This document shows, piece by piece, positions 24,191 to 42,179 of a DNA stretch of 64,000 nt. Within the stretch, counting starts at the first letter, position 1. Every line of letters begins with the position of its first letter. Source of the stretch: Chryseobacterium lathyri. GTDB lineage: Bacteria > Bacteroidota > Bacteroidia > Flavobacteriales > Weeksellaceae. Position numbers and translations under genes: made by a program. The DNA lies in NCBI RefSeq assembly GCF_030812195.1, contig NZ_JAUSSF010000001.1, positions 868,001 to 932,000 on the forward strand, written 5' to 3'. The notes under the pieces were generated by a model, which worked only from the letters and a program-made list of their open reading frames with translations, had not been told where the DNA came from and searched no databases.

Positions 24191-24559
24191 TTACCAACGA
24201 TTTCCGCCGCCGTTACCACCACGGTTATTACCACCGCCGTAGCCACCGCCACCATTTCCACGGTTGTTACCTCCGTAACCTCCGCCTCTGTTGTTGTCAA
24301 AGCTTCTTCTTGGCTTTTCCTCTCTTGGCTTAGCTTCAGATACGTTTAATTCTTTTCCGTTAAATTCTTTCTGATTAAGAGCTTCGATAGCTTGCTTTCC
24401 TTCTTCATCACCCATTTCTACAAAACCGAAACCTCTTGAACGGCCAGTTTCTCTGTCTGTAACGATTTTAGCTGATGATACATCACCAAATTCTGCGAAT
24501 AGATCATGCAACTCATATTCTTTAGTTGCGTAATTGATGTTTGAAACAAAAATGTTCAT
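24191..24559 (-). CDS. Single RRM RNA-binding protein with Gly-rich tail
   Basis: 122 aa. Residues 1 to ~80 are an RNA-recognition motif with RNP2 (MNIFVSNINY) and RNP1 (RSRGFGFVEM). The tail is an Arg/Gly/Asn-rich low-complexity run (GGGYGGNNRGNGGGGYGG-like). Such proteins are abundant RNA chaperones in cyanobacteria and Bacteroidetes and are often induced by stress or cold. The gene has an AT-rich leader of about 75 nt if the TATATTTG on the minus strand at 24639-24646 is the -7 box, which would leave room for post-transcriptional control. Confidence 0.95.
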   Translation of the reverse strand: MNIFVSNINYATKEYELHDLFAEFGDVSSAKIVTDRETGRSRGFGFVEMGDEEGKQAIEALNQKEFNGKELNVSEAKPREEKPRRSFDNNRGGGYGGNNRGNGGGGYGGGNNRGGNGGGNRW

Positions 24560-30686: not shown

Positions 30687-31553
30687 ATGAGAAAAATTTT
30701 TGGGGGAAAGTCAAAAAATATGACTTTTCTCGGGATGACTGCATTGATGAGTGCGGCCTCAATTGTATTCAACGGCTGTAATGGCAAAACTGATGTGAAA
30801 GAGTTTGAAAAAAAAGTTTCACTGGAACATCCCACCGTGAAAACGGTCCCGAAAATAGATGATGAGAATATAGAATCCGATAAAAGAATCATTTACCTTA
30901 CTTTTGATGACGGCCCCAACCAGGGAACGGAAAATCTCCTTAAAATATTAAACAAAAGGAATGTGTGTGCTACTGCTTTTCTAGTGGGAAAACATGCTTA
31001 TGGAAGTAAAAGACAGAAAGATGATATGGAACTTTTAAAAAGCAATCCTCTGATTGAGCTTGCCAATCACAGCTTTAGCCATGCCCATAATAAATACACC
31101 GATTTTTACAAGAACCCTGAGGCTGTAGTCCATGATTTTGATATTGCCAAAGACAGTCTTAAACTTTATGATAAGATAGCAAGAACTCCGGGAAGAAATA
31201 TCTGGAGACTGAACAATATTAACGTTACCGATATTAAAAGTTCAACCGACGCTGCAAACGGCCTTAGAAAAGCAGGCTATAAAGTGATCGGCTGGGATCT
31301 TGAATGGAGACCTTCTCAGAAAATGACTTTAAAAGGAAGCCATGAGGCTATGATCAAAAAAGTGGACAGTATCTTCCTGAATGATCTGGAAAAAACATCA
31401 AGACACCTGGTTTTTCTTACGCATGACCAATACCTCAGAGATGCCGATTCCATCAATGAGCTGGACATGTTTATAGAAAAGCTTCAGAAAAGCAATAAAT
31501 TTGTCTTCAGAAAGATTTCCCAGTACCCGGAGATCAATGATATTCTCAATTAA
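30687..31553 (+). CDS. Polysaccharide deacetylase (NodB homology), lipoprotein
   Basis: 288 aa. The N-terminus carries a hydrophobic signal ending in VFNGCNGK, a lipobox with Cys31. The NodB domain shows motif 1 YLTFDDGPNQGT (catalytic base and metal Asp), motif 2 HSFSHAHN (HxxxH metal ligands), motif 3 RTPGRNIWRL and motif 5 FLTHDQ. It should remove acetyl groups from a polysaccharide, for example peptidoglycan or an exopolysaccharide, in the periplasm or at the surface. The strongly hydrophilic segment after the Cys is a spacer. It is a single gene. Confidence 0.9.
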   Translation: MRKIFGGKSKNMTFLGMTALMSAASIVFNGCNGKTDVKEFEKKVSLEHPTVKTVPKIDDENIESDKRIIYLTFDDGPNQGTENLLKILNKRNVCATAFLVGKHAYGSKRQKDDMELLKSNPLIELANHSFSHAHNKYTDFYKNPEAVVHDFDIAKDSLKLYDKIARTPGRNIWRLNNINVTDIKSSTDAANGLRKAGYKVIGWDLEWRPSQKMTLKGSHEAMIKKVDSIFLNDLEKTSRHLVFLTHDQYLRDADSINELDMFIEKLQKSNKFVFRKISQYPEINDILN

Positions 31554-31708
31554 TGTAACAGTGTATCAGTACAATTTAATAATGCACTGAATAAATTATA
31601 TTGATGGTAACCGATAACTAGCAACTAATTAACCAGTAACCTGCACCCCCAACAACAATTTTACAGATTCATTAGTTTTTTGCTTTTAAAATTCAGAAAT
31701 TTGCATTT

Positions 31709-32368
31709 ATGGATATTAAAGAAAATTATCATGCAATAAAAAATCAGCTGCCTGCGGGAGTTCAGCTGGTTGCCGTTTCCAAAACACATCCTGCTCAGAA
31801 TGTTCAGGAGGTTTATGACCTGGGACAAAAAGTCTTTGGTGAGAACAAGGTTCAGGAACTTATGGAGAAATACCCTCTCCTACCCAAGGATATCCAATGG
31901 CACCTGATCGGGCATCTGCAAACGAATAAAGTAAAATATATCGCTCCTTTCATTGATACTATCCAAAGTGTGGATTCAGAAAAACTTCTTTCAGAGATCA
32001 GTAAGGAAGCCGGAAAGAACAACAGAACTATTAAAGTACTGCTTCAGGTAAAAATTGCAGCAGAGGAAACCAAATTCGGATTTGAGATTGCTGAAGCTAA
32101 ATCATTATTCCAACAGTATATTGACGGAAAATTCACCAATGTTGAAATTACCGGCCTGATGGGTATGGCCACATTTACAGACGACAAAGAACAGGTGAGA
32201 GAAGAGTTCTTGATTTTAAAAAGACTTTTTGATGAATTAAATCAATTAAAAACACTCGAAACTTTATCTATGGGAATGAGTGATGATTTCCCGGCTGCCA
32301 TTGAATGTGGTGCTAATTCCGTAAGGGTTGGATCAGCTATTTTCGGGAGAAGAGATTACTCAAAATAG
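31709..32368 (+). CDS. YggS/PLPBP family pyridoxal phosphate homeostasis protein
   Basis: 219 aa. The PLP-binding lysine is in VQLVAVSKTHPA. The family markers FGENKVQEL and WHLIGHLQTNKVKYI are present, and the C-terminus has LSMGMSDDFPAAIECGANSVR with VRVGSAIFG. It is a single-domain alanine-racemase-like barrel without known catalysis, acting in vitamin B6 and amino-acid homeostasis in the cytoplasm. The start is supported by a GAAATTTG element close upstream, although the promoter match is imperfect. Confidence 0.95.
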   Translation: MDIKENYHAIKNQLPAGVQLVAVSKTHPAQNVQEVYDLGQKVFGENKVQELMEKYPLLPKDIQWHLIGHLQTNKVKYIAPFIDTIQSVDSEKLLSEISKEAGKNNRTIKVLLQVKIAAEETKFGFEIAEAKSLFQQYIDGKFTNVEITGLMGMATFTDDKEQVREEFLILKRLFDELNQLKTLETLSMGMSDDFPAAIECGANSVRVGSAIFGRRDYSK

Positions 32369-32385
32369 TATATTTAGGTATAGTT

Positions 32386-32419
32386 TTTGCTAATAATTGA
32401 ATCAAAAAATCTAAATTTG
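32386..32419 (+). promoter_or_regulatory. Flavobacteriia-type promoter of the sigma-54 activator gene
   Basis: TTTG at 32386-32389, a 22-nt spacer and TAAATTTG at 32412-32419, five nt before the ATG at 32425. Spacing is at the long end of the range and the leader would be nearly absent. Confidence 0.45.
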
Positions 32420-32424
32420 CAACT

Positions 32425-33609
32425 ATGCAAAAAATCCTTATTGTAGAAGACGAAAAAGCAATCTCGGGAGTATTACACAGTATCCTTTCTGATGAACTTA
32501 CCGATTACGAATTTGTTATCGCTGAAGATGGCCTTGAAGGCTACAAACAGATAGAAAAAGAAGATTTCGCATTGGTGATCTCTGATATCAAGATGCCTAA
32601 ACTTTCAGGAACAGAACTTTTAAAGCAAAGTATGATCTTAAAGCCTGAAAGCACATTTATCATGATCTCAGGTCACGCAGATATTGATTCTGCTGTTTCC
32701 TGCCTGAAGGAAGGTGCATATGACTTTATTTCTAAACCGATTGACATCAACAGGCTGATCACAAGTGTAAAAAATGCTCTAGCTAAAGAAAGTCTTAAAA
32801 AGGAAAATAAAAATCTTCAAACTGAAAATAAAACCTTAAAGAAAAAGGTTAACAAAAAATACCAGATGATCGGTGAGTCTCCTGCTTTGAAGAAGATCCA
32901 GGATATGATCGAAAAGGTAGCTGTTTCTGATGCCCGTGTTTTGATTACGGGACCTAACGGAGCCGGAAAAGAATTGGTAGCACACGCTATCCACAATCAA
33001 AGTGAGCGTGCAAGAGGCCCGATGATCGAAGTAAACTGTGCTGCGATCCCTTCTGAACTTATTGAATCTGAACTTTTCGGACACGTAAAAGGTTCTTTTA
33101 CAGGGGCTATTAAAGACAAGCAAGGAAAATTTGAGCAGGCGAACGGAGGAACCATCTTTTTAGATGAAATTGGAGATATGAGCCTTATTGCCCAGGCTAA
33201 GGTTTTGAGAGCATTGCAGGAAAGTAAAGTGTCTCCTGTAGGAAGCGATAAGGAAATAAAAGTTGATGTAAGGGTAATTGCTGCTACAAATAAGAACATG
33301 CAGAAGGAAATTGAGGAAGGAAAGTTCAGGGAAGACCTTTATCACAGGCTTTCTGTAATTGAAATCTATGTTCCGCCGTTGGACGACAGAAAAGAGGATA
33401 TCAAATTATTGGTAGATCATTTTTCCGGATTAATTGCCGATGAGCATGGTACTGCCGTAAAAAAGTTTGATGATAAGGCGATTGAAGCGCTTAAAGTTCT
33501 TTCATGGACAGGAAATATCAGAGAACTGAGAAATGTTGTAGAAAGATTAATTATTCTTGGCGGAAACACTGTTTCTGAAGAGGATGTTGCAAGTTTTGTA
33601 AGGAAATAA
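32425..33609 (+). CDS. NtrC-type sigma-54 response regulator without a DNA-binding domain
   Basis: 394 aa. It has a receiver domain (residues 1-120, phospho-Asp in LVISDIKMPKLSG), a coiled linker (KKENKNLQTENKTLKKKV) and an AAA+ domain with Walker A GPNGAGKE (usually GESGTGKE), the sigma-54-contacting loop GSFTGA (usual form GAFTGA) and sensor RHxLY-type RLSVIEIYVPPLDDR. It stops right after the AAA+ lid (ISEEDVASFVRK-like end), so the C-terminal Fis-type helix-turn-helix of NtrC is absent. It may act from solution or with another DNA-binding partner. A strong terminator follows. The sensor kinase is not adjacent. Confidence 0.92.
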   Translation: MQKILIVEDEKAISGVLHSILSDELTDYEFVIAEDGLEGYKQIEKEDFALVISDIKMPKLSGTELLKQSMILKPESTFIMISGHADIDSAVSCLKEGAYDFISKPIDINRLITSVKNALAKESLKKENKNLQTENKTLKKKVNKKYQMIGESPALKKIQDMIEKVAVSDARVLITGPNGAGKELVAHAIHNQSERARGPMIEVNCAAIPSELIESELFGHVKGSFTGAIKDKQGKFEQANGGTIFLDEIGDMSLIAQAKVLRALQESKVSPVGSDKEIKVDVRVIAATNKNMQKEIEEGKFREDLYHRLSVIEIYVPPLDDRKEDIKLLVDHFSGLIADEHGTAVKKFDDKAIEALKVLSWTGNIRELRNVVERLIILGGNTVSEEDVASFVRK

Positions 33610-33637
33610 TTTAATAGAACATTAAATATATGATAAC

Positions 33638-33670
33638 AATTTGCAGTAGCCTTACTGCAAATTTTTTTTG
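33638..33670 (+). terminator. Rho-independent terminator of the sigma-54 activator gene
   Basis: A perfect 11-bp stem AATTTGCAGTA and TACTGCAAATT with a GCCT loop, followed by TTTTTTG. Confidence 0.9.
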
Positions 33671-33713
33671 CCCTATTTTTAAATATTAAACTATATATGA
33701 ATCATAAAATACT

Positions 33714-35108
33714 ATGAACTTTTTAAACAAAAATTATACGAAAGAATGCCTTACCCTGGCTCTTCCTGTCATGCTTACGCAGGTTGGGCAGGTCTCGGTG
33801 AATCTGTTCGACAATATCATTGTCGGAAAACTTTTAGGAGCGGATGCGCTGGCTTCCGTTTCATTGGGGAATGCCGTATTTTTCTCGGTGTTTGTACTGG
33901 CACTGGGTTTTTCATTTGCCATACCGCCTCTTGTTTCTGAGGCACATTCCAAGCAGGACCACGGAACTATTAATTCCGTATTCAGCCACGGATTTGTGAT
34001 CAATATGGCTGTAGGGATTATTTTAATGGCAATTTTACTTTTAGGGATGCCGCTACTCTATCATTCCGGGCAGCCGGAGAAGATCATTCCGAATACGGTA
34101 GATTTCTTGGGTATTATGGCAATCAGCATGATCCCCTTCATGGCTTTTCAGACGCTTCGTGAAGTCTCTGAAGGTCTTTCTTATACTATTGGTGTTACGA
34201 AGGCAACGATTATTGCGAATGTTATTAATATTGTCCTGAACTATGTTTTCATTAAAGGACTCTGGATCTTTCCCGAAATGGGTGTAAAAGGATCAGCTTT
34301 AGCCACACTGATCTCCAGAATATTCATGGTGGTTTTCCTGTATGCTGTACTGGTGAAAGAGAAAAAAACAAGAAGATATATTAAAGATTTTTCCTTAAAA
34401 ATTCAGGTTTTCTCCAGAAGTATGTTTGATAGAATGGTGAAACTGGGCCTGCCTACTGCCTTACAGATGTTCTTTGAAGTTACCGCTTTTGCAGGTGCAG
34501 CATTTATCTGCGGGCTGATTTCGGCTCACGATATTGCTTCTCATCAAATTGCTTTAAGTATGGCCTCATTTACCTTCAACCTGTGTGTAGGATTCAGTGT
34601 GGCTTCAACGGTTATGATCGGAAGAAAGCTTGGTGAGCAGAACTTTGTTGAATTAAGAAAAGTCGGGATCAACAACCTGAAAATCGCCTTTATTTTTATG
34701 TGTATCTGCGGATTGGTCTTTATTCTGGGAAGAAATATATTACCTACTTTCTTTACTAAAAAAGAGGAAGTTGAAGTGATTACCCTTGCATCGAAATTAA
34801 TGATTATCGCTGCTTTATTCCAGCTTTCGGACGGAATTCAGGTAACGGCTTTAGGAATGCTCAGAGGACTTCAGGATGTAAAAATTCCATCGATCTATAC
34901 TTTTATTGCTTATTGGGTGATTACTATTCCTTTAGGATACTTCTTATGTGTCACTTTAAAAATGGGCGCTTTCGGAATGTGGATCGCTCTAGGACTGGGA
35001 CTCACGGTTTCTGCAGTTTTCCTGGTGAAGCGGTTTTTAAATATGTCTGCGAAGAGAATAAAGCAGAAACATACACAGAATATAACAATAGATCAATTGG
35101 GAGATTAA
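33714..35108 (+). CDS. MATE family multidrug/toxin exporter (NorM type)
   Basis: 464 aa with about 12 hydrophobic segments. The N-terminal LALPVMLTQVGQVSVNLFDN matches the first MATE repeat, and a second related repeat starts near MVKLGLPTALQMFFEVTAF. MATE proteins exchange Na+ or H+ for organic cations and other drugs across the inner membrane. It is a monocistronic gene ended by a very strong hairpin. The terpene synthase islet begins just after this terminator; a link between them is not shown. Confidence 0.94.
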   Translation: MNFLNKNYTKECLTLALPVMLTQVGQVSVNLFDNIIVGKLLGADALASVSLGNAVFFSVFVLALGFSFAIPPLVSEAHSKQDHGTINSVFSHGFVINMAVGIILMAILLLGMPLLYHSGQPEKIIPNTVDFLGIMAISMIPFMAFQTLREVSEGLSYTIGVTKATIIANVINIVLNYVFIKGLWIFPEMGVKGSALATLISRIFMVVFLYAVLVKEKKTRRYIKDFSLKIQVFSRSMFDRMVKLGLPTALQMFFEVTAFAGAAFICGLISAHDIASHQIALSMASFTFNLCVGFSVASTVMIGRKLGEQNFVELRKVGINNLKIAFIFMCICGLVFILGRNILPTFFTKKEEVEVITLASKLMIIAALFQLSDGIQVTALGMLRGLQDVKIPSIYTFIAYWVITIPLGYFLCVTLKMGAFGMWIALGLGLTVSAVFLVKRFLNMSAKRIKQKHTQNITIDQLGD

Positions 35109-35131
35109 AACTCCGGTTATTGACTAAATTT

Positions 35132-35172
35132 AAAAAAGCTGCGCGAAGTCTTCGACTTCGCGCAGCTTTTTT
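35132..35172 (+). terminator. Very strong terminator after the MATE gene
   Basis: A perfect 19-bp stem, arms 35132-35150 and 35154-35172, with a 3-nt loop (TTC) and a GC-rich core GCTGCGCGAAGTC. It ends in TTTTTT. Its last bases form the left edge of the first copy of the 23-bp direct repeat. Confidence 0.92.
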
Positions 35173-35189
35173 ATCCAAGAATAAGAACT
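35167..35189 (+). repeat. 23-bp direct repeat, left copy (islet boundary)
   Basis: Six T followed by ATCCAAGAATAAGAACT. An exact copy is at 36860-36882. The two bound the DNA that carries the terpene synthase, its decayed paralog and the large hairpin. The left copy overlaps the MATE terminator tail. Confidence 0.85.
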
Positions 35190-35354
35190 TGTATATTTTG
35201 GAGAAATATAGGGAAAATCATCAATATTAATTGATTTAAAATCACATCATATACAAAATTATATATGATTAATATTGAATAATTAAAATAAAATTATATT
35301 ATGTATAATAAATTCTTATTTTAGTATTCAAAACTAAACCAAAAACATCACAAT

Positions 35355-35606
35355 ATGAACAATGAAAATCTCAACACACTTGAGCTGTTTTACAAACAGT
35401 TTAAATAACCTTTCCCAACATTAAAAATTCCCAACCTGATTACTTTTTCAATGAAGTACAATCGGTAATCAAAGACGAGGCAACCAGATGGCATGCATTA
35501 TCTTAAAGTAATCCAGCATGAACATCCAATGTCTCTGAAAGAAGCCTGTCTTAAAGATTGGTGCTTGCACAATAAACACCTGAAAGAATTTGTGAGCATA
35601 ACTTAG
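35355..35606 (+). pseudogene. Decayed second terpene synthase (N- and C-terminal fragments, internal deletion, frameshifts)
   Basis: Three frames are needed. An ATG at 35355 gives MNNENLNTLELFYKQFK, then stop. A shift then gives FPNIKNSQPDYFFNEVQS, VIKDEATRWHALS and a stop, which aligns with the N-terminus of the neighbouring terpene synthase (PVYPWETLSS ... EEETRWYDQDYQFLS). A second shift gives HPMSLKEACLKDWCLHNKHL and KEFVSIT followed by TAG. This matches the post-NSE helix of terpene synthases (neighbour residues ~250-274: ISFDEACKEGMRIHDEL, VNEFVTLS). About 200 codons between the two parts, including both metal motifs, are gone. Confidence 0.75.
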
Positions 35607-35669
35607 AAAATAATCACATAGTGAGTATGAATACAATTTTTTATCATTTTAAACTAAAACCATATTATT

Positions 35670-36683
35670 ATGAAACAATTTAATGTACCCAAGCCGGTAT
35701 ACCCTTGGGAAACCCTCTCAAGCCCCTTCGTTGGAACTTTCTATGAAGAAGAAACCCGTTGGTATGACCAGGATTATCAATTCTTATCAAAAGAGGCAAT
35801 GACCAGGTACAGAAAAATGAGGTTAGTTGATGTAGGGCCCTTTATGGTACCTGCAGCTACCGAAAAGGACAAAATCCTGCATGCAACGCGTTTTGCTATT
35901 TATATGACAGTAACTGATGATTATGTTGAACTTTTGCCCATAAAGGAAATTGCAGCTTTCAGAGACCGTATTTTTGAGATAATGATGGGAGATGATCCAA
36001 AACCGGGAGAAATAGGAATGTTCCGTCAAATGCAAACAAACAGAAAGGAATGGATTGCGCTTGGGATGCCAGACTTCTGGCTTGAGCGGATTGCTAAGAA
36101 TTATAAATACCGTTTCGTTACTGATGGAATTATGGAAGAATCACCATATAAAATCAGTAAAGACATTCCCCCTATTCCTCTCTTTCATTTAATCCGTGCA
36201 AATTCCATAGGAATGATTCCATTTGTTGATTTGATATGCCCTTCAACTGGTTTTGCTTTACCTGACTACATTTATAATCATACCGTTATCCAGCGTATTA
36301 TTATGCTACAGTCAATCATTGTTGCTCTTCAGAACGATTTTGCAACTATTGGCAAAGAGCTCGCAATAGAATCAGAGATTTTCAATATCATCAAATTATT
36401 ACAGCATCACAATAAAATTTCTTTTGATGAAGCCTGCAAAGAAGGAATGAGGATTCATGATGAGCTTGTAAACGAATTTGTAACACTATCAAACCATCTA
36501 CCGGATTTCAGTCCATACCAAAAGGAGACAGAGGAATTTATTTATTACATAAAACAAATGATCAGTGGATTAAATAATTGGTATTATAAAAGCGGAACAG
36601 AACGATATGAACCTGATGGATTTGCTGTGCCGCCCAATGGAAAAGGTGAGACAATGGACAGAGTAGAAATTAAATATTTCTAG
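35670..36683 (+). CDS. Class I terpene synthase (cyclase)
   Basis: 337 aa, the normal length of bacterial single-domain terpene synthases. All four active-site landmarks are visible: metal motif DDYVE at residues 83-87; pyrophosphate-sensor Arg176, exactly 46 residues before the NSE triad; NSE triad NDFATIGKE at 222-230; and the RY pair at 312-313. These bind the Mg-diphosphate of a prenyl diphosphate and trigger cyclisation. The substrate (geranyl, farnesyl or geranylgeranyl diphosphate) cannot be read. No prenyl transferase or P450 is adjacent. It sits in an islet between 23-bp direct repeats, just after a decayed paralog. Chryseobacterium is known to contain diterpene synthases. Confidence 0.9.
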   Translation: MKQFNVPKPVYPWETLSSPFVGTFYEEETRWYDQDYQFLSKEAMTRYRKMRLVDVGPFMVPAATEKDKILHATRFAIYMTVTDDYVELLPIKEIAAFRDRIFEIMMGDDPKPGEIGMFRQMQTNRKEWIALGMPDFWLERIAKNYKYRFVTDGIMEESPYKISKDIPPIPLFHLIRANSIGMIPFVDLICPSTGFALPDYIYNHTVIQRIIMLQSIIVALQNDFATIGKELAIESEIFNIIKLLQHHNKISFDEACKEGMRIHDELVNEFVTLSNHLPDFSPYQKETEEFIYYIKQMISGLNNWYYKSGTERYEPDGFAVPPNGKGETMDRVEIKYF

Positions 36684-36752
36684 GACTGATATAGATAATA
36701 TTTTACAGAATTTAAATCTTACAGAAGAATATAATTCAAAAGATTACATGCC

Positions 36753-36833
36753 ATGTAGCCATTACCCCGGCCCGACTTTATCCATCCACATGCAGAGCAG
36801 ATGAGGAAAGATATGGATGGATAATGGCTACAT
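36753..36833. repeat. Large imperfect inverted repeat with a bulge
   Basis: ATGTAGCCATTA (36753-36764) pairs with TAATGGCTACAT (36822-36833), and TCCATCCA (36781-36788) pairs with TGGATGGA (36814-36821). On the left side only, 16 nt (36765-36780) are extra, as if inserted into one arm. It may be a folded RNA end, a terminator or the remains of a small mobile repeat. Confidence 0.7.
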
Positions 36834-36859
36834 CTGACCTGACTTAACGCTTCAGCAAT

Positions 36860-36882
36860 TTTTTTATCCAAGAATAAGAACT
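36860..36882 (+). repeat. 23-bp direct repeat, right copy (islet boundary)
   Basis: Exact copy of the 23 bases at 35167-35189. The flanking bases upstream (TTCAGCAA) loosely resemble the end of the MATE terminator (CGCAGC). Confidence 0.85.
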
Positions 36883-37031
36883 ATACAAACTTAAACTATA
36901 ATTCCTCCATATCAGTAAGCTTTGTTCCCTTTCCGCAAATTCTTTAAAGCTTGTATTTTCATCTGCATTTTCATTTTGAAGTTAAAACCGGGATTCATCT
37001 TACCTCTCAGAACATATGTCTCAAAAAAGAT

Positions 37032-37535
37032 TTAACTCACTCTTTTCCCTAAAATCATCAAGCTCCTTTCAATTCCATCCAGAACCGCTACATCAGGAAA
37101 CATTCCCCATTCTTCAAACCCGAAATTCCTGAAGAGTTTCAAACTGGCTTCATTATGTGAGAAGATAAATCCGAGCAGTGTTTTTATCCCTAAACTTGGT
37201 GCCTTATCAATACAGTATTCCATTACTTTTTTCCCATACCCTTTTCCTCTGCAGGATTCATCGAGGTAAATACTCATTTCAACTGTTCCATTATAGGCAG
37301 GTCTTCCGTAAAATGAAGAAAAACTTACCCATCCTATCGTTTCATGATCATTATTTTCAATGATCCAAAGCGGCCTTGTCTCTGGATTATGTTCGTCAAA
37401 CCAATTTTTTCTGCTTTCCACAGAGACACTTTCTGTATCGGCAGTAACCATTCTTGAAGGAATGGTAGAATTATATATCTCAACTATTTTTTCTAAATCT
37501 TTCAGTTCAGCATTCCTGAATTGCAGCTCTCCCAT
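37032..37535 (-). CDS. GNAT N-acetyltransferase, phosphinothricin acetyltransferase-like
   Basis: 167 aa. The opening LQFRNAELKDLEKIVEIYN, the central SFYGRPAYNGTVEMSIYLDE and the acetyl-CoA loop CRGKGYGKKVMEYC, then SHNEASLKLFRNFGFEEWG, match the Pat/YncA-type GNAT group that acetylates amino-acid-like amines (phosphinothricin, methionine sulfone or sulfoximine). It acts in the cytoplasm. It is transcribed alone on the minus strand just outside the terpene islet. Confidence 0.9.
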   Translation of the reverse strand: MGELQFRNAELKDLEKIVEIYNSTIPSRMVTADTESVSVESRKNWFDEHNPETRPLWIIENNDHETIGWVSFSSFYGRPAYNGTVEMSIYLDESCRGKGYGKKVMEYCIDKAPSLGIKTLLGFIFSHNEASLKLFRNFGFEEWGMFPDVAVLDGIERSLMILGKRVS

Positions 37536-37613
37536 TTTTTATATATTTCTCTGCAAAAATAAGAAGCCTACAGCTTTAACTTGCAGAAAGTTCGTCTGTA
37601 ATTATAATTTATT

Positions 37614-38180
37614 TTACTTTCCTAAATTCCTTAAAGTCCGGTTCAGACTTCTCACCGTAATTCCCAAATAGGCAGCCATATCTTCTTTTGAAATCTTTAT
37701 CCCTTGTTGCGCCTGCAGTTCAAGAAGCTGGGACAATGTATGTTCAGCCGCATACAACTGTTGATATGAGGCTCTTTTTGAAGTATTGACAATACGTTCA
37801 GCAAATACGTCCAGCAACAGATTATTCAATGCGAGATCAGCTTTTATCAAAGACCTGAAATACGGTATAGCAACAGCATACACAGTAACATCTGTAACTG
37901 CTTCAATGCTGCAAAGGCAGGGGATATTCCGGATCAATTCTATTTCCCCGGTGACCTCCCCTTTTCCCAGAAACTCAACAATATACTCTTTACCATTATC
38001 TTCAACGAAAAAACATTTGGTAATTCCTTCTTTGATCAACATTACTTTAGAGAGTTCCTCACCCTGCGCGAATATTCTATCGCCTTTGGAAAATGATCTT
38101 ACCACGATATCTTCTTTGCGTTCCTGCTTTTCATATAAACCTTCCAAATGGTTTAAAAATAGCTGATTGGTCCGTAACAT
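37614..38180 (-). CDS. Crp/Fnr family transcriptional regulator
   Basis: 188 aa. The N-terminal cyclic-nucleotide-binding-like barrel is visible (RSFSKGDRIFAQGEELSKVM, then EYIVEFLGKGEVTGEI), followed by a C-terminal helix-turn-helix (ISKEDMAAYLGITVRSLNRT). It lacks the four-Cys Fe-S ligands of true Fnr, so the ligand is unknown. It is divergent from the HAD hydrolase gene with a 77-nt shared upstream region; mutual control is possible. Confidence 0.9.
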   Translation of the reverse strand: MLRTNQLFLNHLEGLYEKQERKEDIVVRSFSKGDRIFAQGEELSKVMLIKEGITKCFFVEDNGKEYIVEFLGKGEVTGEIELIRNIPCLCSIEAVTDVTVYAVAIPYFRSLIKADLALNNLLLDVFAERIVNTSKRASYQQLYAAEHTLSQLLELQAQQGIKISKEDMAAYLGITVRSLNRTLRNLGK

Positions 38181-38257
38181 ATCTTATCCGGGACAAATGT
38201 CCTTTTCTGTTTGAATTTTTATATTGAATTTTGTCACGAGAAAAATACAAAAGTAAA

Positions 38258-38947
38258 ATGAATAATCATATAATGACCATCGCTTTTGATGCAGATGATA
38301 CGCTTTGGATCAATGAACCTTATTTTCAGGAAGCTGAAAAGGAATTCTGTGCACTTCTTGAAGATTATCTGCCCCAGCATTCTGTTTCTCAGGAATTATT
38401 CAAGACTGAAATGAAGAATCTTCAACTCTACGGTTACGGCGTAAAAGGTTTCATGCTCTGTATGATAGAAACCGTCAGCAGAATTTCAGAAGGTACAGCA
38501 TCCATGCAGTTGATCAACCAAACCATCGAGATCGGTCAGGACCTGCTGCAAAAACCCATAGAACTGTTAGATGGAGTCACAGAGACATTGGATGCTTTAA
38601 AAGGGAAATATAGGCTGGTAGTGGCCACAAAAGGCGATCTGCTGGATCAGGAGCGGAAACTTAAGAATTCAGGACTCCAGGAATACTTTCATCATATAGA
38701 AATTATGAGCGACAAGAAGGAAAGTGATTACCAGAAGCTGCTGAAACATCTGGATTGCAAACCAGAGCAATTTCTAATGCTCGGAAATTCTATAAAATCA
38801 GATATTTTACCGGTACTGGAGATCGGAGGTTTTGCAGCACACATTCCTTATCATGTGACCTGGACCCATGAACAGCATGAGCATCATTTGGAACATAAAA
38901 ATTTTATGGAATTGAAGAGTATTGATGAAGTGCTGAAGTATTTATAA
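38258..38947 (+). CDS. HAD family hydrolase
   Basis: 229 aa from the ATG at 38258; the upstream frame begins at a TTG (38231) and is rejected. HAD motif I is FDADDTLW (nucleophile Asp plus acid/base Asp), motif II is VVATKGD and motif III/IV is FLMLGNSIKSDILPVL. A cap domain lies between motifs I and II. It is a haloacid-dehalogenase-fold phosphatase for a small phosphorylated metabolite; the substrate is unknown. It is convergent with the S9 peptidase gene, sharing a terminator. Confidence 0.9.
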   Translation: MNNHIMTIAFDADDTLWINEPYFQEAEKEFCALLEDYLPQHSVSQELFKTEMKNLQLYGYGVKGFMLCMIETVSRISEGTASMQLINQTIEIGQDLLQKPIELLDGVTETLDALKGKYRLVVATKGDLLDQERKLKNSGLQEYFHHIEIMSDKKESDYQKLLKHLDCKPEQFLMLGNSIKSDILPVLEIGGFAAHIPYHVTWTHEQHEHHLEHKNFMELKSIDEVLKYL

Positions 38948-38948
38948 A

Positions 38949-38978
38949 AAAGCCCGTTCATTGTTTAGAACGGGCTTT
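38949..38978. terminator. Bidirectional terminator between the HAD hydrolase and S9 peptidase genes
   Basis: A perfect 11-bp stem AAAGCCCGTTC and GAACGGGCTTT with an 8-nt loop. T runs occur on both strands (TTTCTATTT on plus, TTTTTTATAAA on minus), so it can serve both converging genes. Confidence 0.85.
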
Positions 38979-38991
38979 CTATTTAACCATT

Positions 38992-41394
38992 TTATTTCTT
39001 CAAACATTTCTCAAGGAACTGATCCTGTTCCCATAAAAGGTGTAAGATGTTTTCTTTAGCTACATAACCGTGAGATTCTTTCGGAAGCAGAACCATTTTC
39101 ACAGGAGCTCCTAAATTTTTAAGAGCCTGGAAATATCTTTCCGTCTGCAAGGTAAAAGTTCCCGGATTATTATCAGCATCACCATGAACCAAAAGCATTG
39201 GTGTTTTCATTTTGTCAGCATTCATGAATGGAGACATCGTATTATAGATTTCCGGAACATCCCAGTAATTTCTCTGTTCACTCTGGAATCCGAACGGAGT
39301 CAAAGTTCTGTTATAAGCACCACTTCTTGCTATACCGCACGCATAATCTTTGGAATGGGTTAGCAGGTTGGCCGTCATAAATGCACCGTAAGAATGTCCT
39401 CCCACCGCTACTTTTGTTCTATCAATATAACCTAACTGGTCTACAGCATCTATGGCCGCTTTTCCATTAGCAACCAACTGTGGAATAAAGGTATCATTCG
39501 GTTCTGTTTTTCCTTCACCGATGATCGGGAAAGCAGCATCATCCAGTACGGCATACCCTTTTGTAGTCCAGTACACGAAAGATCCGTAGTATGGGAATGT
39601 AAAATCGTTCGGGTTCTGGGTATTCTGCCCTGCTGTGTTTTTATCCTTGTATTCTGTAGGATAGGCCCAGATCAGTAAAGGAAGCTTTTCTTTTTTAGCT
39701 TTTCTGTCGTAATTGGCAGGCAGATAAAGAGTTCCCGTTAAAGTAACTCCGTCATTTCTTTTGTACGTAATTACCTCTTTATAAACGTCTTTAATACTTT
39801 CAAAAGGATTCACAAATTGAGTTACTGCTTCTGCTTTATTGGACTTAATATTCTTTTTAAAATAGTTCGGATACAGGCTTGGAGACTGCTGAGTCGTGAG
39901 AATTTCACCTTTTGAAGGATTCAGGATATCTATGATCTCTTCCTTACCATTCTTCATATTAGATGTATACAGTCTTTTCTTTTTAAGTGACTTTACATCC
40001 ATTTCGTCGATGAAGGGATGTTGCCCATCTTTCGTAAATCCATCTCCTATGAGGTAGGTTTTTCCTCCTTTCATATCAATAACATATCTTCCGTACTGAT
40101 TTTTCGTAGTACTAAAGTTCCCCGGATCACTGTAAACATCCTGGTAATTTCTGTCATCAATCACTTTTGATTCACCATTATTAAGGTCTACAAGGAAAGA
40201 TTTGGTATTTCTTGTATCATACCACCCTTCGGAAATTATGGCATAGTGATCATTGGTCCAGCTTACGCCTTCATATCTCTGTTTTGTTTTAAAGAATGAT
40301 TTTGGAGCAGCGGCAAATGGCGCTTCCCATGTAAAAATCTCATCTCTATACTCAGCAGATTTAGACTGGTCGCCTCCATCCAGCGCTTCAGCAAATATTA
40401 AAGTAGCCGGTGCGTCATTTCTCCAGCCCATGCTTCTTTTCCCTGTTCTTACAGATGAAAATCCTTTTGGCATTATTTCATTTAAAGGAACATCATTTAC
40501 TATTTTCACTGCATTCCCTTTCATATCGTATACCGTAGTTGTCAGAGGAAATCTGCTTAAAGGAACAATGTATGAAAAAGGCTTTTTAATCACCGTTGCC
40601 ATTAAATAATTTCCGTCCGGAGAAAAGCTTAAACCGGAATACATATCCTGATCTTTTACTTTTTTAAGATTCCCGCTCAGGTCTACATTATAAATTTCTG
40701 AAGCAGTAAGAACCTCAAAGTTTTTTTCATCCTGAGGATTTTTCAGAAGATCCTGATAGGTTCTGTTTTGCGAAACCTTACCATCAGCCGTAGAAACGAT
40801 GGGTCCGGTGGGAAGATCCTTGCTGGCATCTATAAGAGCCGGTCTGTTTTGAGGAAGTGTTTTGATCAGAAGGCCTTTAGAATCATTGTACCAGGTATAA
40901 GGTGTTCCTAAGTTGGCATTCAGGTTATCACCGGTAATTTTTTTGGCAGAAGCAGTTTCCATATCTACTGTCCAAAGTTCAACTCCTTTATTGGTTGTAT
41001 TGGTAAATGCCAGTGTTTTTTCGTCCGGTGAAAATGAAATATATGTGATTTTGGCATTGGCAGGCAGATTTTTCACCTGAATCTCGCTTTTATCATTGAT
41101 CTTTCTGACCTTCAGATTATCAGAGTAAGTTATGCTGCTTGAAATATTAGTAACAGGATTGATTCTTAAACCTGCAAGTTTCATTTCCTGCTGATTAAGA
41201 TCTCCAAGTGTTTTATAGGTAGGGCGGTAAGTGAAAACCACCCAGTCTTTTTTGCTGTTCATCAGAACACTTGGCGGTCTTTCGTAATCTGCAAGCTTTA
41301 GAATTTCAGCAGATGGTTTTTGATAAGTAATATTCTCCTGTGCATCATAGAAATTGAGAAATGCCAGAAGGCAAATGGTCAGTTTTATCTTCAT
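38992..41394 (-). CDS. Prolyl-oligopeptidase family (S9) serine peptidase, exported
   Basis: 800 aa. An N-terminal signal peptide (MKIKLTICLLAFLNFYDAQ) is followed by a WD40-like beta-propeller of about 500 residues. The C-terminal alpha/beta hydrolase has catalytic Ser668 (GGHSYGAFMT), Asp741 (HGDADNNPG) and His775 (KESHGYVA). It should act in the periplasm, cleaving peptides, probably like the S9 dipeptidyl or glutamyl peptidases. The gene stands alone with a shared downstream terminator. Confidence 0.93.
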   Translation of the reverse strand: MKIKLTICLLAFLNFYDAQENITYQKPSAEILKLADYERPPSVLMNSKKDWVVFTYRPTYKTLGDLNQQEMKLAGLRINPVTNISSSITYSDNLKVRKINDKSEIQVKNLPANAKITYISFSPDEKTLAFTNTTNKGVELWTVDMETASAKKITGDNLNANLGTPYTWYNDSKGLLIKTLPQNRPALIDASKDLPTGPIVSTADGKVSQNRTYQDLLKNPQDEKNFEVLTASEIYNVDLSGNLKKVKDQDMYSGLSFSPDGNYLMATVIKKPFSYIVPLSRFPLTTTVYDMKGNAVKIVNDVPLNEIMPKGFSSVRTGKRSMGWRNDAPATLIFAEALDGGDQSKSAEYRDEIFTWEAPFAAAPKSFFKTKQRYEGVSWTNDHYAIISEGWYDTRNTKSFLVDLNNGESKVIDDRNYQDVYSDPGNFSTTKNQYGRYVIDMKGGKTYLIGDGFTKDGQHPFIDEMDVKSLKKKRLYTSNMKNGKEEIIDILNPSKGEILTTQQSPSLYPNYFKKNIKSNKAEAVTQFVNPFESIKDVYKEVITYKRNDGVTLTGTLYLPANYDRKAKKEKLPLLIWAYPTEYKDKNTAGQNTQNPNDFTFPYYGSFVYWTTKGYAVLDDAAFPIIGEGKTEPNDTFIPQLVANGKAAIDAVDQLGYIDRTKVAVGGHSYGAFMTANLLTHSKDYACGIARSGAYNRTLTPFGFQSEQRNYWDVPEIYNTMSPFMNADKMKTPMLLVHGDADNNPGTFTLQTERYFQALKNLGAPVKMVLLPKESHGYVAKENILHLLWEQDQFLEKCLKK

Positions 41395-41520
41395 ATAAAT
41401 TCGTTTTCCACGAATGTAGTGATTTTTGCGTATAATTAAAATGATAATTTTACTCCCCTTAGTCGTGATATAATTAAATAATTCTATATTAGTAGTACCA
41501 AATAATTTAAAATATTTATT

Positions 41521-41682
41521 ATGAAAAATCTAAAAAAATTATCCAAGAGAGATTTAAAAACTATTATTGGAGGACATGTGCCATCATGTCCTTCCGGATA
41601 CAAAGCATGTGTAGCAGGTGAAGATGAAAACGGTACAATTATATGGACCTGTGTATGGTCCTCGCTGCCATGTCAGCCATAA
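41521..41682 (+). CDS. 53-aa double-glycine leader peptide ('bacteriocin-like'), four Cys
   Basis: The leader MKNLKKLSKRDLKTIIGG ends in the Gly-Gly cut site used by peptidase-containing ABC exporters. A mature part of 35 residues follows, with four cysteines (SCPSGYKAC and WTCVWSSLPCQP) that could form disulfides or be modified. Chryseobacterium genomes carry many short peptides with the same leader, often annotated as bacteriocin-like. No ABC exporter, LanM or radical-SAM enzyme is nearby, so processing would rely on genes elsewhere. Strong terminator directly downstream and an AT-rich upstream region support a real gene. Confidence 0.85.
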   Translation: MKNLKKLSKRDLKTIIGGHVPSCPSGYKACVAGEDENGTIIWTCVWSSLPCQP

Positions 41683-41688
41683 TAAATA

Positions 41689-41717
41689 AAAAGAGCATTC
41701 AAATTGAATGCTCTTTT
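41689..41717 (+). terminator. Terminator after the GG-leader peptide gene
   Basis: A perfect 12-bp stem AAAAGAGCATTC and GAATGCTCTTTT with a 5-nt loop. A T-rich tract follows that forms the tandem repeat. Confidence 0.85.
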
Positions 41718-41741
41718 ATCTTTTATCTTTTATCTTTTATC
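41714..41741 (+). repeat. Four tandem copies of TTTTATC
   Basis: Four exact 7-bp copies in a row, overlapping the end of the terminator and lying just before the convergent DoxX gene. Copy number could vary by slippage. Confidence 0.9.
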
Positions 41742-41750
41742 TGAACCGGA

Positions 41751-42179
41751 CTACCAATCCGAAGCTCTTTTTCTTTTTTCTATCATATGGTCTACCGATA
41801 TTTTTCCCGCACCAAAAACCATGAGAAGCAGATAAACAGACAAATAGATCAGACTCATTTCTTTTTTATCAAAAGGATCTGCTCCATGAACTACAAAAGC
41901 CGCAATGGTCATGGTAAAAATCAGAAATCCTAAAGAAATCCTTGTAAAAAGACCTAGAATAAGAAGTATTGAACAAACAAATTCAGCAATAACCGTAAGA
42001 ACCAAGGTCACTGTAGGACCTAATCCTATAAAGTCGAAAAATTCAATTTTACCGCCCTCAAGCAGCATCTGAAGTTTTGGAAACCCGTGAGAAAGCATGG
42101 CAAAACCTACAAATACTCTCACTGCTAATAAAATAATATCTTTAGGCACTGAGCTGGAATTTGAATTAAAATAGTTCAT
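41751..42179 (-). CDS. DoxX family membrane protein
   Basis: 142 aa with four hydrophobic segments. DoxX markers are FVGFAMLSHGFPKLQMLLEG in the first half, and the later ILLILGLFTRISLGFLIFTM and DKKEMSLIYLSVYLLLMVFG. DoxX proteins are small inner-membrane proteins linked to oxidative-stress or quinone metabolism; the biochemical role is unclear. It lies upstream on the minus strand of the convergent peptide gene. Confidence 0.9.
   Translation of the reverse strand: MNYFNSNSSSVPKDIILLAVRVFVGFAMLSHGFPKLQMLLEGGKIEFFDFIGLGPTVTLVLTVIAEFVCSILLILGLFTRISLGFLIFTMTIAAFVVHGADPFDKKEMSLIYLSVYLLLMVFGAGKISVDHMIEKRKRASDW

Follow-up and report, generated by a model that had tools for sequence, protein, structure and literature searches.

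How can a terpene synthase (TPS) gene reach a new place in a bacterial chromosome when no recombinase or transposase accompanies it? The question is raised by an islet in the window, the 64,000-nucleotide stretch of Chryseobacterium DNA analysed here, where an exact 23-bp direct repeat encloses TPS sequence between a MATE efflux transporter gene and a GNAT acetyltransferase gene (Table 1). A first-pass annotation had reported this repeat, and both copies are present and identical. The annotation had also described the contents as an intact TPS, a decayed second TPS, a hairpin and nothing else, and had likened the arrangement to an insertion at, or recombination within, the end of the MATE terminator.

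Table 1. Coordinates of the islet, its flanks and the array-side protein (window coordinates, except in the last row, where each locus is named)
Feature	Position	Strand	Evidence
MATE efflux transporter, left flanking gene	33714..35108	+	Pfam MatE E 5.9e-51; TIGR00797 over cut-off
MATE terminator hairpin	35131..35173	+	20-bp arms 35131-35150 / 35154-35173, 100% complementary
Left copy of 23-bp direct repeat	35167..35189	+	Exact match; C. elymi 21/23 identical (2 mismatches), C. lathyri (G062) 20/23 (3 mismatches)
Islet left end, candidate upstream region of TPS-A	35190..35354	+	Array homology from 35253 at earliest, later in most arrays
TPS-A remnant	35355..35607	+	First ~25 codons joined to the stretch from ~222 to ~275
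TPS-B, intact predicted class I terpene synthase, 337 aa	35670..36683	+	PF19086; motifs; dN/dS
TPS-C 5' remnant	36722..36859	+	70-86% identical to intact C starts over 36722-36822; alignment, translation
Right copy of 23-bp direct repeat	36860..36882	+	Exact match; identical in C. elymi, 1 mismatch in C. lathyri (G062)
Decayed 3' end of 181-aa gene	36888..37017	-	76-80% identical to L037, L039, L041, L053
GNAT acetyltransferase, right flanking gene	37032..37535	-	Pfam Acetyltransf_1 E 2e-16
112-116-aa protein beside TPS arrays	L102 10652-10990; L104 6402-6752; L112 12639-12977; L113 3005-3343		

Contents of the islet

The islet as a whole, its hairpin included, is a fragment of a tandem TPS array of the order A-B-C, since the DNA on either side of TPS-B matches, in order, the neighbours of TPS-B's closest relatives elsewhere. 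Arrays at other loci read A-B-C in G087, A-B on contig 27 of G062, A-B-C-D in G153 and G078, and A-B-D in G083, and they occupy different gene neighbourhoods in different species; G158 carries TPS-B without neighbouring array genes. The window genome has at least 12 matches to TPS-B. When the islet DNA was searched against 246 genomes drawn from the family, some match was found in 75, and a nearly full-length one (query 15-1654 of 1670) only in C. lathyri (G062) and C. elymi (G032). The leading stretch of the islet, 35190-35252, matched none of the relatives' arrays with which it was compared. A small protein of 112-116 aa (M.I.KI.D..AEK.SNDY.TW...L..TQ...YVC..W..EI) lies repeatedly beside TPS arrays; a 60-aa piece of one such protein had no Pfam match.

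TPS-A carries a large internal deletion, of codons ~25 to ~222, and also lacks its end, the final ~60 codons; the two blocks that remain lie ~600 bp apart in intact A genes. The deletion junction is common to the window, C. elymi and C. lathyri, and the three islets therefore descend from one event. TPS-B is the intact member. Judged by domain and motifs it is predicted to be a class I bacterial terpene synthase, with a match to PF19086 (Terpene_syn_C_2) at E 1.3e-22 (80.9 bits against a curated cut-off of 23.7) and with DDYVE at residue 83, NDFATIGKE at 222 and RY at 312, which we take to be the Asp-rich, NSE-type and RY motifs of this class. Its dN/dS among the three islets is 0.035-0.084, and the gene is thus under purifying selection. 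Apart from TPS-B the islet contains no open reading frame above 70 aa and none of the size of a recombinase or integrase.

The third gene survives as a 5' remnant. Homology to TPS-C reaches codon ~73 in C. elymi and C. lathyri, where it stops against the right repeat, and the window remnant lacks about 60 bp relative to these two. The hairpin of the first-pass annotation (arms 36753-36767 / 36819-36833) lies inside this decayed 5' end and is thus no separate part of the islet; the intact TPS of that description is TPS-B and the decayed one is gene A. The folding z-score of the hairpin is only -2.6, and Rfam at E up to 0.1 gave no match on 36753-36833, its sole result being a sub-threshold miRNA-family match on the MATE terminator. 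We rejected the hairpin as an RNA element or dispersed palindrome, because it lies in decayed TPS-C coding sequence and has no Rfam match. By eye, its arms seem more complementary than the same stretches of intact TPS-C, and a shift of both arms toward complementarity is what a quasi-palindrome template switch would produce. The right repeat can be read as a continuation of TPS-C coding sequence (FQQFFYPRIRT), a reading that we dropped because intact C genes, compared by eye, are unmatched past CAG(CA).

The repeat, its junctions and the corresponding intervals in relatives

The repeat stretches leftward to 28 nt with 2 mismatches (35162-35189 / 36855-36882). The window holds no further match to the 23-mer at up to 3 mismatches, and two matches arose in none of 100 shuffles. 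A search for the 23-mer in the genus, again with 3 mismatches allowed, covered 173 genomes. Eighteen contained a match of any kind, but a pair at one locus, flanking a TPS, occurred only in the window genome, C. elymi and C. lathyri; the last two carry repeats that look slightly decayed. G128 has two 3-mismatch matches, unrelated and far apart. With the 6 islet copies set aside, 16 matches remained across the 173 genomes, each with 3 mismatches, against 17 for a reversed control pattern. This is chance level, so a dispersed repeat, which would have counted against the first-pass reading, is ruled out. The window genome itself has no match at up to 3 mismatches outside the two islet copies. An exact 20-mer was found in six stretches of genome contigs, two from C. 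elymi, one from C. lathyri and three from unrelated metagenome-assembled genomes (MAGs), in a search that possibly did not include the window's own record.

On the left, the repeat copy begins in the T-run at the tail of the MATE terminator hairpin, a T-run that relatives have in common; the first-pass annotation had noted the overlap with the terminator tail. The terminator core occurs at one place in the window genome at up to 3 mismatches, and the same kind of hairpin follows MATE in relatives that bear a GLPGLI-type gene there. Such a gene (GLPGLI/Porph_ging-type, the family being that of the G033 copy) occupies the MATE-GNAT interval of L037, L039, L041 and L043, where the 19-bp palindromic terminator core GCGAAGTCTTCGACTTCGC is present twice; a core related to GCGAAGTCTTCGACTTCGC occurs at a single place in the window genome. 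On the right, the repeat starts where TPS-C homology ends. Its extended 28-nt form opens at GCA(G/A), at the point where that homology stops (CAGCA), which suggests 3-5 nt of microhomology at this junction. Beyond the repeat, 36888-37017 would be the target side of the right junction: a minus-strand gene of 181 aa stands intact before GNAT in L037, L039, L041, L053 and L063. Its copy in G002 had no Pfam match.

We then compared the intervals between MATE and GNAT in 40 relatives, mostly the best of the 172 of 173 genomes that match the MATE query. A TPS lies in the interval in only two, C. elymi and C. lathyri, and is absent from the other 38; among the matches listed for the 171 genomes with TPS matches, no other TPS stands beside this MATE gene. 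Within the genomes searched, then, three species alone have the islet. Two of the 40 intervals gave no GNAT; in the other 38, where both genes were found, the gap is variable in general, from 66 bp to 2.3 kb. Of the 41 intervals, the window's included, 27 were tested for exact direct repeats of at least 14 bp. A repeat at islet ends appeared only in the window (23 bp) and C. elymi (21 bp), the other repeats being the doubled terminator palindrome of the four loci named above and, in L039, a 14-bp repeat.

These comparisons support the proposed insertion at the end of the MATE terminator. The alternative outcome, an islet in most relatives with no empty sites, did not occur, and the intervals without it include those of an adjacent clade (G096, G101, G072 and G073). 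An empty site with a single 23-bp copy, which the first-pass annotation had named as the sign of insertion, was found in 0 of 173 genomes, and target duplication is accordingly something we infer. We also looked for homology across the joined flanks in the 38 relatives, and three matches were not bettered in 100 shuffles: one falls on GLPGLI coding sequence by chance, one is largely the end of the 181-aa gene itself (G002), and one is an AT-rich stretch after a distant relative's terminator (G127).

The trees of the flanking genes disagree. DPP unites the three islet species in one clade (support 100/99) and G101, G072, G073 and G096, none of which has the islet, in another (100/98), which is sister to the islet clade in the FastTree DPP tree and unresolved in a second DPP tree. 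The MATE and HAD trees do not group the three islet species. Given this disagreement, recombination has affected the flanks as well, and one tree does not show how many gains there were, nor can a single insertion on one stem followed by descent be read off it. The C-terminus of MATE (window 35040-35130) has a long, ITIDQLGD-like form in the window, G033, G082, G096 and G145 and a short form in C. elymi, C. lathyri and others; the distribution of the two forms is at odds with the DPP tree and points to recombination close to the terminator.

Exchange of the filled locus

The synonymous difference of TPS-B is 0.141 between the window and C. elymi, 0.145 between the window and C. lathyri, and 0.034 between C. 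elymi and C. lathyri. For the last pair no lower value occurs among the 43 genes compared over about 60 kb (ORFs of at least 120 aa), GNAT comes second (0.059), and MATE, CRP, HAD and DPP differ at 0.365-0.476; for the window and C. elymi the TPS-B value is the second lowest of 48. TPS-B differed from groups of neighbouring genes in 14 of 15 Fisher tests (p 7e-30 to 2.6e-5). The exception is TPS-B against GNAT in the C. elymi-C. lathyri pair (p 0.37), GNAT being part of the same exchanged block. For this pair low divergence begins at about 35044 (window coordinates) and ends at about 37650, a block of ~2.6 kb that holds the islet and GNAT; beyond it, over CRP, divergence returns to roughly 8-17% per 60 columns.

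The decayed parts of the islet agree, differing by 2-3% between C. elymi and C. lathyri and by 10-14% between the window and either. TPS-B places C. elymi with C. lathyri (100/98), whereas DPP places the window with C. lathyri (100/98). Because the synonymous divergence of the block is low and the decayed parts agree with it, we conclude from these alignments that the filled locus was evidently exchanged recently, by homologous recombination, between the C. elymi and C. lathyri lineages.

The window's own islet was likely exchanged in the same way. The case for a transfer involving this lineage is weakened because distant pairs likewise show smaller synonymous divergence in TPS-B than in DPP and MATE (G087-G158: 0.464 for TPS-B, against 0.715 for DPP and 0.702 for MATE). 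Simple vertical inheritance in all three species is thus rejected for C. elymi and C. lathyri and, since the synonymous divergence of TPS-B is low in other pairs as well, only weakened for the window. Elsewhere in the window, a 122-aa gene on the minus strand (24191-24559) has a synonymous difference of 0.013 to C. elymi and of 0.27-0.28 in the other two pairs, and is likely another recent exchange, between the window genome and C. elymi.

Proposed arrival of the fragment

The junctions read most simply as the capture of a linear fragment together with duplication of 23-28 bp of the target. The fragment, a piece of a TPS array that starts upstream of gene A and stops near codon 73 of C, would have entered the intergenic DNA that directly follows the MATE terminator and adjoins the end of the 181-aa gene. 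A staggered break repaired by the Ku/LigD pathway could have duplicated the terminator tail, leaving one copy at each end; replication that switched template and resumed ~23-28 bp upstream of its departure point could have produced the same duplication. Either route predicts a target duplication of this length. Being broken, genes A and C would then have decayed while TPS-B kept its function, and the filled locus would later have been exchanged among close species by homologous recombination in its flanks. On balance we consider this sequence of events somewhat more likely than not. Ku is encoded in the window genome, with a LigD (ligase/primase-polymerase) gene 0.7 kb downstream, and was found in all 12 genomes tested, the window genome among them, which shows a capacity for end joining and not its involvement.

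A different route to an exact direct repeat without a transposase would be Campbell-type integration, in which the array fragment, circular or with its ends joined, had the 23-bp sequence beforehand and recombined by crossover with a matching chromosomal site, the repeat being the crossover homology. Recombination at short flanking repeats is discussed for small variable segments in the relevant passages of PMC2884548. However, no TPS among the matches listed is found less than 50 kb from any of the 16 non-islet 23-mer matches, all of which have 3 mismatches, and 23 bp is below the ~30-bp threshold for RecA in E. coli that the same passages cite. We regard such a crossover as unlikely.

The repeat might also be no insertion scar but a second copy of the terminator tail, functional or incidental, that constraint has preserved. 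The two window copies show 0 differences, against ~3 expected for neutral DNA of the islet's apparent age as estimated from islet divergence, so the repeat may be constrained or converted. It also differs little across species, while the window's islet remnants are 10-14% different from those of C. elymi and C. lathyri. Yet both copies sit at boundaries between array-derived and target-derived DNA, although 35190-35252 matches no array, and the sequence occurs nowhere else in the window genome at up to 3 mismatches; we think a constrained duplicate quite unlikely. The islet could instead descend from a transposon or integrative element with terpene synthases whose recombinase is now gone, in which case the repeat would be the element's target duplication or attachment site. 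Such an origin would fit a gene that most neighbours lack at this site and that has direct repeats on both sides, and it would fit arrays in differing gene neighbourhoods, but it is very unlikely, given that the islet ends bear no inverted pair, that no recombinase-sized ORF besides TPS-B is present, that no tRNA lies in 31000-42000 and that TPS-C is cut inside its coding region at the repeat.

For the same reasons the islet, captured as a linear array fragment on our reading, does not belong with transposons, insertion sequences or MITEs, having no transposase and no terminal inverted repeats, or with site-specific integrative elements, having no integrase-sized ORF and no nearby tRNA. We file it with a looser kind of event, comprising insertions with long target duplication and small variable segments, with the proviso that a single-copy site was seen in 0 of 173 genomes. 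Insertion with long target duplication was described in Helicobacter pylori (Nobusato et al. 2000, as summarised in passages of PMC1643837 and PMC4978471), where restriction-modification genes are frequent among the inserts and the unduplicated site is known from a second strain. As there, a gene-bearing insert is flanked by a direct repeat; unlike there, the insert is a TPS array fragment and none of the 173 genomes supplies the single-copy site. The link to restriction-modification, which PMC1643837 presents in its account as frequent and not obligatory, is not seen in the islet, where only TPS sequence was recognised.

Small variable segments, of which 10-18% are flanked by repeats mostly under 30 bp according to the sections of PMC2884548 on homology-assisted illegitimate recombination, resemble the islet in being short accessory segments between conserved genes. 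That within-species comparison, however, reads repeats chiefly as deletion sites in those sections, whereas our islet looks like an insertion product and is found in three species. TPS-B can further be likened, on genus and enzyme class alone, to the chryseodiene and wanjudiene synthases, class I diterpene synthases of Chryseobacterium that PMC7383580 reports, in the part describing them, along with many presumptive TPS genes in the genus; that part concerns chemistry, and our subject is the locus. Among the matches listed in literature on terpene-synthase clusters, tandem arrays and pseudogenes in Chryseobacterium or flavobacteria, which are enzyme, taxonomy, survey and plant papers, no title names such an islet, which leaves its absence from that literature unproven.

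The islet is a well-resolved case of an already known kind of event. It lets one read how a biosynthetic gene can come to a new site without an evident mobile element, be pared down to the one useful gene and be exchanged between species as an ordinary allele, and it illustrates how relics of array genes can present themselves as a striking hairpin and a decayed second gene. Were the capture mechanism demonstrated, there would be a way to test whether bacterial Ku/LigD repair contributes to gene gain. A broader proposal, which we offer as a speculation with low expectation, is that part of the unusually large TPS repertoires of Chryseobacterium is built by capturing array fragments at intergenic terminators without a recombinase, the target being duplicated through end joining and the filled loci then spread between species by flanking recombination. 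If that were true, the MATE-GNAT interval would be one such landing site.
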